59,218 nucleotides of DNA, from positions 1 to 59,218 of the forward strand of contig CANGYF010000024.1 of NCBI GenBank assembly GCA_947458265.1. Direction: 5' to 3'. Made by a program: the position numbers and the translations under genes. Source of the DNA: Betaproteobacteria bacterium (GTDB lineage: Bacteria; Pseudomonadota; Gammaproteobacteria; Burkholderiales; CAIKXV01). The notes below the pieces were generated by a model. That model searched no databases, had not been told where the DNA came from, and saw nothing but the letters and a program-made list of their open reading frames with translations. Numbering within the stretch: the first letter of the stretch is position 1; each line of letters starts with the position of its first letter. Shown one piece after another: positions 7,827 through 31,578 of the stretch.

Positions 7827-8300
7827 TCAGTCGACGGGATCGTCCAGCTCGTCCTCGATCGAACCGTCCTTCAGCACCCGGGCGATCGTCGACCCGCTGA
7901 AGCCGCGGTTGCGCAGGAAGCGGATCTGCCGCATGCGCTCGTTCGCGTCGGCCGGCGCGACGCCGAACTTGCGCCGCCACACATCGCGCGCGATGGCGAG
8001 TTCACCCTGCTTCAGCGGCTGCGCAGCCTCGCCGAGCAGGATCGGATCAACGCCCCGCCTGCGCAGGTCGTTGAGCACCCGCGCCGCACCGAAACGGCGC
8101 GAGTGGTTGACCACCTGCTCGACCAGGCGCCGTTCCGACAGCCAGCCCCGGGCGACGAAGTCGTCGAGCAGCGCATCGATGTCGTCATCAGGCCCGGCAT
8201 GGCGACGCAACTTCGCCTGAAGTTCCGCGCGCGAATGCTCGCGGCGCGCCAGGTAGCCGAGCGCCCGGCCGCGCAGCGACAGCGGTGGACGAGGCGGCAA
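7827..8300 (-). CDS. recX: RecA modulator RecX
   Basis: This 157-residue basic protein has RecX repeats: SLRGRALGYLARREHSRAEL, then LLDDFVARGWLSERRLVEQ, and a C-terminal repeat with RQIRFLRNRGFSGSTIARVL. RecX binds RecA filaments and limits their extension and activity. It lies 59 bases downstream of recA on the same strand, the usual arrangement, and is probably expressed by read-through from lexA/recA. The C-terminus is acidic (EDELDDPVD). Confidence 0.95.
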   Translation of the reverse strand: MPPRPPLSLRGRALGYLARREHSRAELQAKLRRHAGPDDDIDALLDDFVARGWLSERRLVEQVVNHSRRFGAARVLNDLRRRGVDPILLGEAAQPLKQGELAIARDVWRRKFGVAPADANERMRQIRFLRNRGFSGSTIARVLKDGSIEDELDDPVD

Positions 8301-8359: not shown

Positions 8360-9394
<1,035 letters not shown>

Positions 9395-9512: not shown

Positions 9513-10112
9513 TCAGACTGCGTTGAGGTCACGCACGACGCCGATCGCGATGCCTTCGATCACGAGCGGTGTGCGGGCGAGTTCGATCACGATCGGCGAG
9601 AACTCGGGGTTCTCGGCGATCAGGTAGGCGCGGTCACCCTTGCGCTTGAGGCGCTTGACGGTGACTTCATCCTCGACCCGGGCGACCACGATCTGGCCGT
9701 CGCGCGCCTCACTGGCCTTGTGCACCACCAGCCAGTCGCCGTCGAGGATGCCGGCATCGCGCATGCTCCAGCCGCGCACCTTCAGCAGGTAGTCGGCGCG
9801 CAGCTTGAACAGGTTCGGGTTGACCGGGTAATGGCCAACGACATGCTCGGCCGCCAGCAGCGGCGCACCGGCAGCCACCTGGCCGACCAATGGCAGGCCG
9901 GAGGGCTCGGTCAGGCGCAGGCCGCGGGCCATGCCAGACAGCGTGATGGCGCCCTTCTTCTCGAGCGCCCGCAGGTGCTCTTCCGCGGACGCGGGCGACT
10001 TGAAACCGAACGCCCGCGCGAGTTCCGCGCGGGTCGGCGGCATGCCCTCGGACTCCACGAAACTGCGGATGAAGTCGAGGATTTCCTGCTGGCGTGTGGT
10101 CAGACCGTCCAT
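9513..10112 (-). CDS. lexA: SOS repressor LexA, with altered recognition helix
   Basis: This 199-residue LexA represses SOS genes and self-cleaves with RecA. The N-terminal winged helix is followed by the peptidase domain. The cleavage site is Ala81-Gly82 (VAAG), with Ser116 (GWSMRD) and Lys153 (VTVKRLK) as the dyad. The recognition helix reads [12 protein letters not shown] at 39-50, with Ala41-Ser42 in place of E. coli Asn41-Ala42. Aligned to E. coli, the ATG at 10112 is the natural start, yet no Shine-Dalgarno precedes it: the bases immediately upstream are the operator itself (10113-10130). A leaderless transcript is inferred. recA and recX follow on the same strand. Confidence 0.98.
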
Positions 10113-10130
10113 ACCGTAAATTTATACGGT
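10113..10130 (-). promoter_or_regulatory. Predicted LexA operator of lexA (CCGT-N8-ACGG type)
   Basis: ACCGTATAAATTTACGGT on the minus strand is a near-perfect palindrome that abuts the lexA ATG. Its core is CCGT-N8-ACGG, the usual LexA box with the second base changed from T to C on both sides. The same box with two central differences lies before imuA (31561-31578). Recurrence at exactly the two genes expected to be SOS-regulated is the main support. Confidence 0.85.
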
Positions 10131-10148
10131 ATTCGGCCAGTAATGCAA
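10113..10148 (-). promoter_or_regulatory. Predicted lexA core promoter giving a leaderless mRNA
   Basis: On the minus strand, TTGCAT (10148-10143), a 16-base spacer and TATAAA (10126-10121) form a sigma70-like promoter. Eight bases separate TATAAA from the ATG, so the predicted transcription start falls at or next to the A of ATG. The -10 hexamer lies inside the operator, so LexA binding would occlude RNA polymerase directly. Confidence 0.6.
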
Positions 10149-25701: not shown

Positions 25702-28700
25702 CTAGCCGAAGTCGCGCGAGGTCGTCACCAGCCGGCCGAGCAGCCGGGTATCGTCGACCAGCCGGCCGGCGACCAGGTGCACTACCTCGCCTTCGCGCTG
25801 CACATGGCCGTACACGGTCATCAGGCGCGAGCCGAGCAGTTCGCGCCGCTGCTTCTCGACGATCGTCGGCCACACCACGACGTTGATGTGGCCGGTCTCG
25901 TCCTCCAGCGTCACGAACACCACGCCGCTGGCGGTGGACGGACGCTGGCGGCAGGTGACGATGCCGCAGGCGCGGATCAACTGGCCGTTGCGTGCGGCAC
26001 GCACCGCGTCGGCGGTGGACAGGCGGCGCCCGGCGAGCATCGGGCGCAGCAGCGCGAGCGGATGCCGGCGCAGCGTCAGGCCGAGCGTCGAGTAGTCGAG
26101 CATCACGTCCTCGCCTTCGGTGGGCGGCAGCAGCGAGGCCTGCACCGCATCGCGCGGTGCGCGCGTCAGCGGCGTGTCGGCTTCCAGCGCCAGCGCCTGC
26201 CACCAGGCCTCGCGCCGATGCCCGGCCAGCGCACACAGGGCATCGGCCGCGGCCAGTGCGTTCACGTCGGCGCGCTGCAACGCGGCGCGCCGGGCGAGGT
26301 CATCGAGGTCGACGAACGGTGCCTGGCGGCGCGCGGCCACGAGACGTGAAGCACCCGCCTCTGACAACCCCTTGACCATGCGCAACCCGAGGCGCAGCGC
26401 CGGCGAACCTGTGCCATCACTGCTGCCACCCCCATCGCCCCCACGGGTGCAACCCGCATCGGGGCGCTCCAGCACGCAGTCCCAGCCGCTCACCGTCACG
26501 TCCGGCGGCAGCACCTGCACGCGATGCCGCTTCACGTCCTGCACGATCTCGGACGGCGAATAGAAGCCGAGCGGCTGCGCGTTCAGCAACCCGCAGGCGA
26601 AGGCCGCCGGATGGTGGCACTTCAGCCAGCACGACACATAGACCAGCAGCGCGAAGCTTGCTGCATGCGATTCGGGGAAGCCGTACTCGCCGAAGCCCTG
26701 GATCTGCCGGAAGATCTGTTCGGCATAGTCGGCGCTGTAGCCGCGCGCGAGCATGCCGGCAAGCAGCCTGTCGCGGAACGGTTCCAGGCCACCCTTGCGC
26801 CGCCAGGCCGCCATCGCACGGCGCACCCGGTCGGCCTCGCCCGCCGTGAAGCCGGCGGCCACCACCACCAGCTGCATCACCTGCTCCTGGAAGATCGAGA
26901 TGCCCAACGTGCGCTCGAGCACGCCCTTCACCGCCTCGGAGGGATAGGTGACCGGTTCCAGCCCCTGCCGCCGGCGCAGGTAGGGATGCACCATGCCGCC
27001 CTGGATCGGCCCTGGCCGCACGATCGCCACCTCGATCACCAGGTCATAGAAGCATTTCGGCTTCAGCCGCGGCAGCATGGTCATCTGCGCCCGCGATTCG
27101 ATCTGGAATACGCCGATGGTGTCGGCGCGCTGGATCATCGCGTAGGTCTGCTCGTCCTCGGCCGGGATGTCCTGCAGCCGCCAGGGGCTGGGGCTGGGGC
27201 TGGGGTAAGCCTTGACCCCAGCCGCATCCAGCGCATCGAGCGTGCGGCGGATGGCGGTCAGCATGCCCAGCGCCAGCACGTCGACCTTCAGCAGCCCGAG
27301 CGCATCGAGGTCGTCCTTGTCCCACTGGATCACGGTGCGGCCGTCCATTGCCGCGTTCTCGACCGGTACCAGCCGGGTCAGCCGGTCGCGCGCAATCACG
27401 AAGCCGCCGCTGTGCTGCGACAGGTGGCGCGGGAAGCCGACCAGCTGGTGCGCGAAGTCGACCACCTGCCCGACCAGCGGATTGCCGGGATCGAAGCCGG
27501 CCTCGACCAGCCGTTCATCCTTTACCTGCTTGCCATCCCACCAGGCGATGGTCTTCGCCAGGCGGTCGACCTGGTCGAGCGACAGGCCGAACGCCTTGCC
27601 GACATCGCGCAGCGCCGAGCGCGGCCGGTAGGTGGCGAGCGCTGCAGTCAACGCAGCCCGGTCGCGGCCGTACTTGCGATAGATGTACTGCATCACCTCT
27701 TCGCGCCGCTCGTGCTCGAAGTCGACGTCGATGTCCGGCGGTTCGTTGCGCTCCTTCGAGATGAAGCGTTCGAACAGCACCTGCATCCGGCCCGGGTCCA
27801 CCTCGGTCACGCCCAGTGCGTAGCAGACCGCGGAATTGGCCGCCGACCCGCGCCCCTGGCAGAGAATGCCGCGGCCGCGCGCGAAGCGCACGATGTCGTG
27901 CACGGTCAGGAAATAGGCTTCGTAGCCGAGGTCGGCGATCAGCGCGAGTTCATGCTCGACCAGCTTCAGCACGACGGCTGGCGTGCCATGCGGATAGCGC
28001 TCGTCCAGCCCCTCGAAGGTCAACTGGCGCAGCCAGCTCGCCGCGGTCTCGCCCTCGGGCACCAGTTCGCGCGGGTACTCGTAGCGCAGTTCGTCGAGCG
28101 AGAAGGTACAGCGCCCGGCAATCTCGACCGATTGCAGAAGCAGTTCCGGCGGATACAGGCGGGCCAGCCGTGCGATCGGACGCAGGCAGCGCTCCGCATT
28201 GGCCAGCACGCGCGAGCCGAGTTCGGCCAGCGGCAGCCCTTCGCGGACCGCGGTCAGCACATCGTGCAGGGCCTTGCGCTCGCGCCGGTGCATCTGCACC
28301 GCGCCGCAGGCGACCAGCGGCAGGCCGGGGCCGGCGTCCTGCCCGGCGCCGGCCGCGAGCTGCAGCGCACGCTCGAGCAATGCGCCGTCGTCCGGTCCCT
28401 GCACCAGCACCACGCCGATCCAGCAGGCCCCGGGAAAGGCACGGCCGATCATCGCCACCGATTCGCCGCCACCGGATACGCCGCTGGCCGAAGATGGCAC
28501 GACGATCGCCAGGCAGTGCGGCACGCCGCGCGCGAGGTCGGCCAGCCGCAGGCAATAGCGGCCCTTGGCCATGCGCCCGCGCGCAAGGGTGATCAGCTCG
28601 CAGAGATTGCCGTAGCCCTCACGGTTGCAGGCGAGCAGCAGGATGCGCTCGATCGACGGGCAATCGGCGAGCGCGAACTGCGCGCCGATGACCAGGTGCA

Positions 28701-28881
28701 GCCCGCATTCCTTTGCGGCCAGGTGGGCGCGCACCACGCCGGACACCGAGCATTCATCGACGATCGCCAGTGCGCGGTAGCCAAGCGCAGCGGCCTGGGC
28801 AACCAGTTCCTCGGGATGGGATGCACCACGCAGGAAGGTGAAATTGGAGAGCGCATCGAGTTCAGCGCAGGCCGGCAGCAT
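25702..28881 (-). CDS. dnaE2: Error-prone DNA polymerase DnaE2
   Basis: DnaE2 (ImuC) is the catalytic polymerase of the SOS mutasome and works with ImuA and ImuB. The 1059-residue protein has an N-terminal PHP domain (MLPACAELDALSNFTFLRGASHPEELV), a polymerase core with PDIDVDF (residues 382-388; Asp383 and Asp385 equivalent to catalytic aspartates of DnaE), QHSGGFVI, ESRAQMTMLPRL, FQEQVMQL and GFGEYGFPESHAASFA, and a C-terminal OB fold. It starts 13 bases after imuB at ATG 28881; the longer frame to 28986 overlaps imuB. A PSPSPSP insertion lies after VKAY, encoded at 27184-27205. Confidence 0.97.
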   Translation of the reverse strand: MLPACAELDALSNFTFLRGASHPEELVAQAAALGYRALAIVDECSVSGVVRAHLAAKECGLHLVIGAQFALADCPSIERILLLACNREGYGNLCELITLARGRMAKGRYCLRLADLARGVPHCLAIVVPSSASGVSGGGESVAMIGRAFPGACWIGVVLVQGPDDGALLERALQLAAGAGQDAGPGLPLVACGAVQMHRRERKALHDVLTAVREGLPLAELGSRVLANAERCLRPIARLARLYPPELLLQSVEIAGRCTFSLDELRYEYPRELVPEGETAASWLRQLTFEGLDERYPHGTPAVVLKLVEHELALIADLGYEAYFLTVHDIVRFARGRGILCQGRGSAANSAVCYALGVTEVDPGRMQVLFERFISKERNEPPDIDVDFEHERREEVMQYIYRKYGRDRAALTAALATYRPRSALRDVGKAFGLSLDQVDRLAKTIAWWDGKQVKDERLVEAGFDPGNPLVGQVVDFAHQLVGFPRHLSQHSGGFVIARDRLTRLVPVENAAMDGRTVIQWDKDDLDALGLLKVDVLALGMLTAIRRTLDALDAAGVKAYPSPSPSPWRLQDIPAEDEQTYAMIQRADTIGVFQIESRAQMTMLPRLKPKCFYDLVIEVAIVRPGPIQGGMVHPYLRRRQGLEPVTYPSEAVKGVLERTLGISIFQEQVMQLVVVAAGFTAGEADRVRRAMAAWRRKGGLEPFRDRLLAGMLARGYSADYAEQIFRQIQGFGEYGFPESHAASFALLVYVSCWLKCHHPAAFACGLLNAQPLGFYSPSEIVQDVKRHRVQVLPPDVTVSGWDCVLERPDAGCTRGGDGGGSSDGTGSPALRLGLRMVKGLSEAGASRLVAARRQAPFVDLDDLARRAALQRADVNALAAADALCALAGHRREAWWQALALEADTPLTRAPRDAVQASLLPPTEGEDVMLDYSTLGLTLRRHPLALLRPMLAGRRLSTADAVRAARNGQLIRACGIVTCRQRPSTASGVVFVTLEDETGHINVVVWPTIVEKQRRELLGSRLMTVYGHVQREGEVVHLVAGRLVDDTRLLGRLVTTSRDFG
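27184..27222. repeat. GGGGCT tandem repeat and hairpin inside dnaE2
   Basis: Three GGGGCT units in tandem (27184-27201) run into an inverted repeat with perfect 8-base arms, GCTGGGGT (27199-27206) and ACCCCAGC (27215-27222). It encodes the Pro/Ser insertion in DnaE2 between VKAY and WRLQDIPAED and is absent from typical family members at this point. Confidence 0.7.
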
Positions 28882-28894
28882 GGCGTGGCTGCCG

Positions 28895-30502
28895 TCATGC
28901 GAACAGACCGTGCAGATACCAGCGCGATGGGTCGACCGGTTCGCGGTAGATCCAGCAGGCTTCGCCGGCACGGTTGCGGGCGACATAGTAGTCGCGGGCG
29001 ACGGCGCGCCCGTCCCACCAGCCGGCCTCGATGCGCTCGGGACCGCTCACCAGTTCGAGCGGCCCATGGTACTGCGGCCGGGACTCGGCGCAGACCAGCA
29101 TGCGCGGCCGCTCGAGCAGGAACACCGGGCGCTCGCGGCGCGAGCGCATCGTCGTTGCGGTGTCGCGCAGGCGCGCGGCGGCGGCCGTCGGGGCCGTGGT
29201 CGCGGTAGCCAGGGCGGCGCCAGCGGCCGATGCCGGCGTGCCAGTGCCAGCACCAGTGCCGGTGGCCGGACGCAGCCGTGGCGGGCGGCCATCGGCCCGA
29301 CGCCAGGCCTGCTCCGGCCGATGGTCATCGCGCAATGCGACCGAGAACAGTGCGCCAGGCTCCAGCCGCGAGGACAGGCGTTCGGTCAGCTCGTGCCAGG
29401 ACTGCGCACGCCGGGTGGCGTCGGGCAGGAAGCTGGTGCTGTGCTCCCCGAAGCCGTGCAGTGTGTCGACATGGAGCGCCACGGCACTGATCGTCGCCTT
29501 CAGTTCCAGCCGCTCGAGCCGCTCGCGCACCAGCCGCTGCCAGCGCGCACGGGCACGCTCCGGCACAGCGGAACCCAGCGTGAGCCGGGTCGGCACCGAA
29601 CGGCCGTGTTCGAGTTCGACCACGAGTTGCAGCGCCCCTGCCCCTCGGGCCCGCAGGAAGCCCTCCATCTCGGCGAGCATGCGGGAGACCGGGATGTCGA
29701 GCAGCGCGGTGTCGATCACGTCGAACGGCAGGTCGATGCGCGAGGAGAAGCGGTCGGGCAACGCGAAACACGGCCGTGGATCGGCGGCGCGCCCCAGCGC
29801 ACGGTCGAGGTCGGATTGTGCATCCGCCCCGAACCGCCGGCGGAAACCGTCGCGTGGCAGTGCCAGCGCCTCGCGGATGCGGCAGATGCCGAGTACCGCC
29901 AGCGCATCGAGGCGTTCGCGTGGCCAGTCGAACAGCGCCAGCGGCAGTTCGGCGAGGCGCGCCGGCAGGTCGGCCGCTTCGAGGCAGGCACGCACCCCGG
30001 CCTGTTCATGGCCACCGCGTGCCAGCAGCCAGGCACCCAGCGGCGTCGGAGCAACCCCGAACGAGGCCCGGAAGCCGAGTTCGGCCAGTCCGGTGCGAAA
30101 CTGGCCGAGCAGACGCGCGAGCCCGCCGAACAGTTTCAGGCTGCCTGCAACCTCGAGCAGCACGCCCGAGCGCTCGAGCACCACCGATGGCGTGAACTGC
30201 GCAGCCCAGCCGGCCACCTGCCGGATCGCCGCTGTTTCGCGTGCCTCGTCCCGGTGCAGCGTGGCCAGTCCGGTGGCCAGCGCGCAGGCCGCTGCCACCG
30301 ACATGCCCGGATGCACGCCGGCCGCACGCGCCCGCGGATTGGCCGAGTGCACGAACGGCCGGTTGTCGGGGCCATCGCTGACCGCCAGCGGCAGGTCGAC
30401 GATGAGTGCAGTGCCGGCATCGCCAGCCTGCACCCGGTTGACCACCTCGAGCGGCAGGTCGGGCAGGTAGAGCGCAATCCAGAGCATGGTCGGTCTCTTC
30501 AT
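28895..30502 (-). CDS. imuB: ImuB, catalytically inactive Y-family polymerase homologue
   Basis: ImuB is a scaffold that links DnaE2 and ImuA to the beta clamp during mutagenic bypass. The 535-residue protein (from ATG 30502; ATG 30487 is an alternative with an AAGAGA site) has the Y-family fold but lacks the catalytic acidic motif: the first strand reads LWIALYLPDLPLEVV where active polymerases have a DMD-type motif. Further matches are PRARAAGVHPGMSVAAACAL, LPARLAELPLALFDWPRERLDALAVLGI and the C-terminal WWDGRAVARDYYVARNRAGE. It lies nine bases after imuA and 13 before dnaE2. Confidence 0.95.
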   Translation of the reverse strand: MKRPTMLWIALYLPDLPLEVVNRVQAGDAGTALIVDLPLAVSDGPDNRPFVHSANPRARAAGVHPGMSVAAACALATGLATLHRDEARETAAIRQVAGWAAQFTPSVVLERSGVLLEVAGSLKLFGGLARLLGQFRTGLAELGFRASFGVAPTPLGAWLLARGGHEQAGVRACLEAADLPARLAELPLALFDWPRERLDALAVLGICRIREALALPRDGFRRRFGADAQSDLDRALGRAADPRPCFALPDRFSSRIDLPFDVIDTALLDIPVSRMLAEMEGFLRARGAGALQLVVELEHGRSVPTRLTLGSAVPERARARWQRLVRERLERLELKATISAVALHVDTLHGFGEHSTSFLPDATRRAQSWHELTERLSSRLEPGALFSVALRDDHRPEQAWRRADGRPPRLRPATGTGAGTGTPASAAGAALATATTAPTAAAARLRDTATTMRSRRERPVFLLERPRMLVCAESRPQYHGPLELVSGPERIEAGWWDGRAVARDYYVARNRAGEACWIYREPVDPSRWYLHGLFA

Positions 30503-30510
30503 GGCCGTTA

Positions 30511-31560
30511 TCAGTGGGCCGGATCGAAGTCGCGGTCGCGCACCAGGCGGGCCGCGACCGCGCGCACGGCAGACATCGACCGGGCGAGCGGACCCTTCGG
30601 CGCCGTGGCGGCAGCAGCGGGGGCGGGAGCGGTATCGGTCAGGGCAGGCACCGGCGCACCACCCGCCGCACCACGCCCGGAGGGCACGCCCGCCAGGTAG
30701 GGCACCGGTAGCCGGCGCGGCGACAGGGTCACGGTCTTCGGCTGGGCCAGCCCGCGCCGCTTGACCAGGGTCACCGCCAGCCGGCCCTGCGCGGTCATCG
30801 ACAGCGACAGTCGCAGGGCAGCCGGCGTCGACAGCGTCGCGGCGCTGGTTGCCGAGAACACGATGCCCAGCCCGCCGCCGGCTGCTGCAGCGATCTGCAG
30901 CCGGCGCAACCGCTGGTACCGCTGCGCGCTGTCGGTGCCGCGCACCGGCCGTGCCCAGACCAGCACCGCACCGGCGGCGCCCGAGCGCAGCGCCTGCTCG
31001 GCAGCCCACAGCGCGTCTTCCTCGGTCTTCGGACGCACCACCGCCAGCAGGTCGAGATCGATGCCGGCCTCGGCCAGCGCCGGTGCATAAGGCAGGTGCG
31101 GCGGATCGATCAGCAGCAGCCCGCGGCCACGCCAGTCGGCAGCCCGGGTCAGGTAGCGCAGCGCCGGCAGCAGCAGCGATGCCTCGCCGGCACCGCAGGT
31201 GTCGCACAGCACTTCGGTGAGCGCGCCGACCGGCCAGCCACCGCCCGGGATCTCGGCATCGAGCCCGGCAAAGCCGGTCGGGATACCAGGCAGGATACCC
31301 GGCGGCAGTTCGCCGCAGCGGAACACCGACGGCACCGAGGCCAGCGCCACCCGGGCGCCGCCGGCCGCAGGCACGAAGCCCGTGCTGGCAGCCACGGGAC
31401 GGGATGCCGACCCGGGCCGCAGGGACGAGGCCGGCAGGCCAGCCAGCGCCGGGAAGGCACCGGTGGCCGAAGGATGGAAGGACGCGAACGCGGAGGCCGG
31501 CCCGGAAGCGGGCGCGGCGGCGAAGGCGGCGAAAGGGAGGGGGGCGGCGGCAGGAGGCAT
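30511..31560 (-). CDS. imuA: ImuA, SOS mutasome accessory protein
   Basis: ImuA is a RecA/SulA-like partner of ImuB and DnaE2. The conserved body starts near FRCGELPPGILPGIPTGFAGLDAEIPGGGWPVGALTEVL and continues with RGLLLIDPPHLPYAPALAEAGIDLDLLAVVRP and LRRLQIAAAAGGG. Before it lies an extra 75 or so residues rich in Ala, Pro and Ser. The ATG at 31560 is the only Met before the conserved part. It directly abuts the LexA-type operator, with no Shine-Dalgarno, so a leaderless transcript is inferred. Total length is 349 residues. First gene of the imuA-imuB-dnaE2 operon. Confidence 0.93.
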   Translation of the reverse strand: MPPAAAPLPFAAFAAAPASGPASAFASFHPSATGAFPALAGLPASSLRPGSASRPVAASTGFVPAAGGARVALASVPSVFRCGELPPGILPGIPTGFAGLDAEIPGGGWPVGALTEVLCDTCGAGEASLLLPALRYLTRAADWRGRGLLLIDPPHLPYAPALAEAGIDLDLLAVVRPKTEEDALWAAEQALRSGAAGAVLVWARPVRGTDSAQRYQRLRRLQIAAAAGGGLGIVFSATSAATLSTPAALRLSLSMTAQGRLAVTLVKRRGLAQPKTVTLSPRRLPVPYLAGVPSGRGAAGGAPVPALTDTAPAPAAAATAPKGPLARSMSAVRAVAARLVRDRDFDPAH

Positions 31561-31578
31561 ACCGTATTTTTATACGGT
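31561..31578 (-). promoter_or_regulatory. Predicted LexA operator of imuA-imuB-dnaE2 (CCGT-N8-ACGG type)
   Basis: ACCGTATAAAAATACGGT on the minus strand abuts the imuA ATG exactly as the related box abuts the lexA ATG. Including flanks and start codon, 21 of 23 bases match the lexA site; the two differences are central. The core is CCGT-N8-ACGG. Confidence 0.85.

Follow-up and report, generated by a model that had tools for sequence, protein, structure and literature searches.

A betaproteobacterial LexA with an Ala41-Ser42 recognition helix is paired with CCGT-type candidate operators at lexA and imuA

The LexA operator of Escherichia coli has the consensus TACTGTATATATATACAGTA, and LexA408, an E. 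coli laboratory mutant carrying P40A/N41S/A42S, has a CCGT half-site. Within the Betaproteobacteria, Sanchez-Alberola et al. (2015, J Bacteriol) reportedly described a noncanonical LexA with a GAAC-type motif that belongs to an unrelated lexA. In the available excerpts of the literature, LexA408 is traced to Thliveris et al. 1991 (cited in PMC9614035) and is described as having altered specificity without interfering with the wild-type LexA pathway (PMC9614035, PMC8222386, PMC3575510, PMC8986121); one study combined it with the wild-type protein at a hybrid operator (PMC3575510) and is already used in synthetic biology (PMC8222386, PMC9614035). Excerpts of other work name Ser39, Asn41, Ala42, Glu44 and Glu45 as the DNA contacts of E. 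coli LexA (PMC3091678), count 17 LexA motifs, describe these as differing strongly between bacterial groups and propose duplication as the cause (PMC8565304). The open-licence literature, as far as its accessible text goes, yielded no natural CCGT-type LexA, and it yielded no paper on P40A/N41S/A42S. Here we analyse a contig of 59,218 nucleotides (the window) from a little-known uncultured genus, in which the master regulator of the response to DNA damage appears, to judge from its sequence, to read a signal one letter per half-site away from the textbook one.

On the minus strand of the window, lexA, recA and recX are consecutive, and imuA-imuB-dnaE2 lies around 20 kb away (Table 1). The ATG codons of lexA and imuA each come directly after an 18-bp palindrome, ACCGTATAAATTTACGGT and ACCGTATAAAAATACGGT, respectively. 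When the AT on each side is included (one of which comes from the ATG), both become 22-bp imperfect palindromes that pair at 18 of 22 positions. The two sites resemble TACTGTATATATATACAGTA apart from a symmetric T-to-C and A-to-G exchange (T2 to C and A15 to G), one base per half-site. The original prediction of near-identical palindromes at the two genes is thereby borne out, both being exact and the sole CCGT-W8-ACGG sites in the genome.

Table 1. Positions of the SOS genes, candidate operators and promoter-like elements in the window.
Feature	Positions	Strand	Remarks
lexA (LexA1, 199 aa)	9513..10112	-	TIGR00498, 226 bits (cut-off 111); PF01726 and PF00717
Recognition helix of LexA1, codons 39-50	9963..9998	-	Ala41, 9990-9992; Ser42, 9987-9989; computed from ATG 10112
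recA, 3' of lexA	8360..9394	-	
recX	7827..8300	-	predicted TTG start
imuA	30511..31560	-	NF033429, 183 bits (cut-off 150)
imuB	28895..30502	-	IMS domain, PF00817
dnaE2, error-prone polymerase	25702..28986	-	NF004225, 1451 bits (cut-off 939)
Candidate LexA operator ACCGTATAAATTTACGGT	10113..10130	-	abuts lexA ATG (10112-10110); overlaps -10 element
Candidate LexA operator ACCGTATAAAAATACGGT	31561..31578	-	abuts imuA ATG (31560)
-10-like TATAAA	10121..10126	-	within lexA operator, 8 nt before ATG; from sequence
-35-like TTGCAT	10143..10148	-	16 bp from TATAAA; from sequence

A first-order Markov model trained on the window predicts 0.001 exact CCGT-W8-ACGG sites per genome; the whole 4,011,251-base genome holds two, the lexA and imuA boxes, so that the exact palindrome is not spread over non-SOS genes; a wide spread over such genes had been named as evidence that would speak against the original prediction. 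Relaxed patterns were less informative. With up to two mismatches, CCGTWWWWWWWWACGG occurs at three places in the genome (the two exact sites and one with two mismatches) and its reversed control also at three, and the strength of the case therefore rests on the two exact sites. ACCGTAT-N5-TACGGT with up to two mismatches gave 16 forward matches against 21 in the control, looser patterns were not enriched, and CTGT-N8-ACAG has 5 occurrences where the control has 13. Leaving out the AT core made the search too unspecific, and CCGT-N8-ACGG in that form (95 places; control, 179) was discarded. This background frequency, and the equal number of AT-core near matches in genome and control (three and three), would suit the view that the palindromes at lexA and imuA are accidental; for the two exact sites that view is refuted by the expected number, by their placement at the two gene starts and by their conservation through the genus, and we regard its probability as negligible. 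ACCGTAT-N4-ATACGGT with up to two mismatches recovers both operators and three other places in the same genome, and no SOS gene was recognised among the reading frames at the weak own-genome matches (L003, L004, L005 and L144). In viral contigs, 95 stretches match this last pattern; on one of these contigs (L210), ACCGTATATAAATACGGT directly precedes the start codon of a 65-aa open frame whose translation resembles an HTH protein.

The window LexA combines a DNA-binding domain (PF01726, 90 bits) with an S24 peptidase domain (PF00717, 111 bits). From Ser39 onwards, its recognition helix can be aligned with no gap to E. coli LexA SPNAAEEHLKAL, and the alignment confirms Ala41-Ser42 at the positions of E. 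coli Asn41-Ala42. The window protein reads Pro40-Ala41-Ser42 and so lacks the Asn41-Ala42 of the CTGT class; two of the five named contact residues are replaced. The Ala-Gly cleavage site and the catalytic Ser/Lys pair are kept, with VAAG, GWSM and VKRLK aligning with the E. coli stretches (site numbering as in the excerpted text of PMC3091678).

Both boxes contain an in-frame TAA ahead of the ATG, which makes an earlier start impossible. Given these stop codons, the TATAAA 8 nt before the ATG and, at lexA, the TTGCAT element, the lexA and imuA messages are probably leaderless. The TATAAA-in-box layout recurs at the lexA genes of the genus, with 'cttgcat' or 'cttgcg' at the -35 place. It is not specific to CCGT, because in two relatives from the same order (L024 and L028) a CTGT box is spaced identically from the ATG; the window box occupies the place where the CTGT boxes of relatives sit.

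We then compared the window genome with its relatives, using genomes that are mostly draft or metagenome-assembled. LexA1 was recovered in 8 of the 11 genomes of the genus, and in all eight the box abuts the ATG and the helix reads SPAS; it was not found in G003, G008 or G009. G003 and G008 have the imuA box although no LexA1 was recovered from them, and G009 (83% complete) gave no box at up to one mismatch in an order-wide pattern search. The lexA boxes include the variants ...AAATGTACGGT and ...AAATGTTCGGT, and the G001 box has one mismatch (CCGT-N8-TCGG, ending TTCGGT). An imuA box is present in eight of the 11 genomes and abuts an ATG in frame with imuA in seven; in G001 the imuA frame passes through the box, no ATG stands there, and the ATG 6 nt after the box is out of frame with imuA. 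Named records bring the genus set to 14 loci (one of them, L036, assigned by a 96% identical LexA), which encode nine distinct LexA proteins. All nine pair Pro40-Ala41-Ser42 with a CCGT box, so that by sequence each of these genes has a candidate operator in its own promoter. Ser39 and Glu44 are kept throughout the genus, as is Glu45 except in L011, which has Asp45. Aligning LexA and upstream regions, as had been proposed, thus shows that CCGT boxes track Ala41-Ser42 in this genus, and the pairing inside it is one inherited event. One record with the genus lexA, L040 (CAMDXD010000478.1), is metagenome-assembled and titled Bordetella parapertussis, a title that looks wrong.

The genus also contains a second, very different LexA-like repressor, with helix SRGSLHKHVQAL (G000:C8:97990-98631, L135; also L136-L141). 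Because this LexA2 (helix SRGSLHKHV) is encoded in seven of the 11 genomes (G000, G001, G003, G004, G006, G008 and G010), two S24 repressors coexist there, and lexA duplications have been reported alongside motif change (in the available part of PMC8565304); the boxes might therefore belong to another repressor, most plausibly LexA2, with the helix change in LexA1 being unrelated. We consider this improbable. The 330 nt before LexA2 hold no AT-rich box at any of the seven loci, three of which have one GC-rich 7-of-8 CCGT match; the box departs from the LexA 20-mer by one base per half-site and lies at the place where relatives have CTGT boxes; and a second lineage, described below, pairs a CCGT box with a LexA1 that has Ser41-Ser42. 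It could also be that the operators drifted under a helix that tolerates both forms, making the genus LexA a relaxed-specificity protein, not a switched one. Our evidence is sequence, with which relaxed binding would be compatible, yet none of the 11 genus genomes (the window genome and ten others) contains CTGT-W8-ACAG, and all half-sites changed together and stayed so, save for one base of the G001 lexA box, while LexA identities fell to as low as 82%. We therefore rate relaxed specificity as rather unlikely. Among relatives from the order, CTGT-W8-ACAG occurs in 17 of 49 genomes, at one to four sites each.

The wider comparison covered 239 lexA loci from the genus, the order, the class and named records (14 genus rows and 225 others); for the class, 369 genomes were searched, and the 132 in which LexA was matched at an E-value of at most 1e-40 feed the comparison. 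PAS helices and convincing CCGT boxes occur only in the 14 genus rows. Under box scores and cut-offs that we set ourselves, and with a called CTGT box allowed one mismatch, the 225 non-genus loci divide into 178 with CTGT, 45 with no box above the cut-off, one mixed and one with a GC-rich CCGT match (L266). L266 was weighed as a counterexample and rejected: its CCGTGGCGCTCGACGG at -71 is GC-rich, a CTGT-like sequence lies nearer the gene, and we judged the match to be chance.

Relatives with other residues at the two helix positions are informative about the single steps. CTGT is kept at all four Asn41-Ser42 loci (exact in L081, L082 and L320, one mismatch in L399) and at all six Thr41-Ala42 loci (four exact, two with one mismatch), indicating that neither Ser42 nor Thr41 alone is linked to the switch. 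It is also present at one of two Tyr41-Ala42 loci, at 6 of 14 Asn41-Gly42 loci (two exact; the other eight are without a box above the cut-off) and at the only His41-Gly42 locus, where both residues are changed. No box was called at the single loci with Phe41, His41-Ala42 or Gln41-Gly42. In L030 (G031), a relative from the order, the helix has diverged (TNGVFKHL) and neither a CTGT nor a CCGT box was recognised; the LexA of this relative adjoins the window genus in two trees.

An order-wide search for near matches returned 61 of 399 genomes, ten of them in the window genus, among the matches listed. Twenty of the 51 matching genomes outside the genus were inspected (L145-L164), so the number of lineages is a lower bound. 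In family f38, G318 and G395 (genus g140) and G091 (genus g62) have Ser41-Ser42 helices, reading T-A-S-S, T-P-S-S and A-V-S-S, respectively, at positions 39-42; G318 thus has Ala40-Ser41-Ser42, the triple of LexA408. Upstream of G318 lexA stand ACCGTCTATACTTACGGT and ACCGGATATCCATACGGC in tandem, and imuA and imuB follow lexA behind one other gene. In G395, ACCGAACGTCCATACGGT, a box with one mismatch, stands 6 nt upstream of lexA, and ACCGTATATTTGTACGGT directly adjoins the ATG of dnaE2; imuA and an imuB-like frame come next after its lexA. In G091, ACCGCATAAATATACGGT (L154; L426:13290) lies between a divergent SRAP gene (PF02586, 'SOS response associated peptidase', 254 bits) and a gene string comprising a methyltransferase, a small frame (NTF2-like in our reading), lexA and an imuA-like frame. 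No box was found within 250 nt of the G091 lexA start; the box is around 1.55 kb upstream, before two other genes. All six genomes of the sister genus g38 in f38 keep S-A-N-A (Asn41-Ala42), with exact CTGT-N8-ACAG boxes in two and seven-of-eight matches only in the other four.

Counting both groups, 12 of the 13 distinct proteins seen with Ala or Ser at position 41 and Ser42 have CCGT-type boxes, the link being less direct in G091. L393 (G762) is the exception, a distant LexA-like protein with Ser41-Ser42 (helix RLRSHSSAQDYVEAL) and no recognisable CCGT box, in which other contact residues are changed as well. A ACGTACATTCGTACG-type palindrome lies near L393, possibly another type of operator. 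The original prediction of a natural lineage with CCGT operators and changes at positions 41 and 42 is therefore upheld in all nine distinct genus proteins, and the combination recurs in f38.

We tentatively propose that the change from CTGT to CCGT evolved independently in two betaproteobacterial families, by a double exchange at residues 41 and 42, to Ala-Ser in the one family and to Ser-Ser in its counterpart (in one protein together with Ala40). On this view the LexA408 solution was reached at least twice, single changes leave CTGT in place, and the regulon has contracted to lexA plus the mutagenesis cassette; we rate this at a little under an even chance. In a LexA tree of 230 rows, from which the helix columns were removed and identical rows dropped, the box changes once, counting rows with a called box, and positions 41 and 42 each change at least 12 times. 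A more careful tree of 52 LexA proteins, also without the helix columns and omitting L030, L022, L032 and most named and class rows, places the window genus beside Rhodocyclaceae-type LexA and the f38 proteins elsewhere, requiring at least three changes, with weak support for the deep split (73/89). That separation speaks against a single origin, in which a switched lexA would have been transferred horizontally between f1, the family of the window, and g62/g140 of f38, with Ser41 becoming Ala41 in f1 or the reverse. Forcing the switched proteins into one clade, however, lowers the likelihood of the careful tree by 7.1, which the AU test does not reject (p 0.366), and raises that of a quick 78-row tree (p 0.748); moreover, G091 LexA is 65% identical to window LexA, where the closest LexA outside the genus reaches 68%, among the records listed. 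A single origin is thus a substantial possibility, at somewhat under even odds.

The original prediction went further in proposing that the whole SOS regulon had moved to the new box, and this part is not supported: only two strong operators were found, and uvrA, recN and the lexA-recA gap are without AT-rich boxes, so that the regulon looks reduced to two operons. The 350 nt upstream of the uvrA motif contain no CTGT match at nine genus loci, and hence none of the canonical boxes that had been named as potential contrary evidence; four of the nine have 7-of-8 CCGT matches with a GC-rich core (at most four A/T in eight). Upstream of recN, readable at seven of eight loci (all but L408), there is one GC-rich 7-of-8 CTGT match (L405, at -210) and nothing else, and the lexA-recA gap has neither a CCGT nor a CTGT box at nine genus loci. 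Judged by strong operators, the SOS regulon of the genus looks to consist of lexA, perhaps with recA-recX, and imuA-imuB-dnaE2; recA may be co-transcribed with lexA. Two further features were seen around uvrA. A CGGTTATAGTAACAGGTTGCC-like stretch precedes most of the nine uvrA genes (L289-L297) and has the look of a promoter rather than of a LexA box. In addition to the normal uvrA, G000:C2:256360-261996 (L300) encodes a second UvrA-family protein, an open frame of around 1,940 aa with two UvrA halves in tandem, and similar matches occur in other genomes of the genus.

Taken together, these data make it very probable, in our assessment, that an autocleavable LexA in which Asn41 became Ala and Ala42 became Ser has changed in step with its operators, from CTGT-N8-ACAG to CCGT-N8-ACGG, and acts as repressor both of the operon that encodes it and of the mutagenesis cassette. 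In the model that we infer, LexA dimers would sit on the 20-22 bp palindrome, where they would mask the -10 element together with the ATG of a leaderless message. This would silence imuA-imuB-dnaE2 as well as lexA, the latter probably along with recA and recX, until RecA-triggered cleavage of LexA lifts repression. The two substitutions may themselves cause the switch: loss of Asn41 together with the hydroxyl of Ser42 would plausibly favour C:G at the second position of the half-site.

The intermediate steps of LexA motif change are otherwise hard to see. Here a single base in each half-site and two residues make up the difference, and there are relatives in single-residue states, which makes the co-change testable with few proteins; a repeated origin, if true, would be a readable case of stepwise repressor-operator co-evolution. 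Synthetic biology also gains natural LexA/operator pairs as candidates for orthogonal use.

Among described systems, the survey of LexA motifs offers a likeness in showing LexA-operator divergence inside one family; none of the motifs given in its accessible text, which are part of the 17 (CTGT-N8-ACAG, TTAC-N3-GTAA, GGTT-N10-AACC, GTTC-N7-GTTC, GGA-N5-TCC and CTAA-N5-TTAG), equals CCGT-N8-ACGG (PMC8565304). The canonical LexA of beta- and gammaproteobacteria (CTGT-N8-ACAG; E. coli, PDB 3jso) is of the same family and architecture with an ungapped HTH, shares S39, P40, E44 and E45 with the window protein, and has the same autoregulation layout with a box over the -10 element; it differs in having Asn41-Ala42 and CTGT, whereas the window has Ala41-Ser42, CCGT and two strong operators only. 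Among the named betaproteobacterial records listed, LexA shares 60-68% identity with the window protein; such identity to canonical relatives is too high for a replaced LexA of the Sideroxydans type, which we rejected. The LexA said to have been described by Sanchez-Alberola and colleagues is likewise a motif change inside the Betaproteobacteria; the window change is one base per half. LexA408 comes closest, and the resemblance that had been predicted holds in part: the altered specificity proposed here, positions 41 and 42 and the CCGT half-site, found here in both operators, correspond, while the window has Pro40-Ala41-Ser42, and the full A40-S41-S42 triple is found in the relative G318, which, like G395, also carries Thr39 and Asp45. 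Unlike the laboratory mutant, the window LexA is natural, and it comes with matching natural operators.
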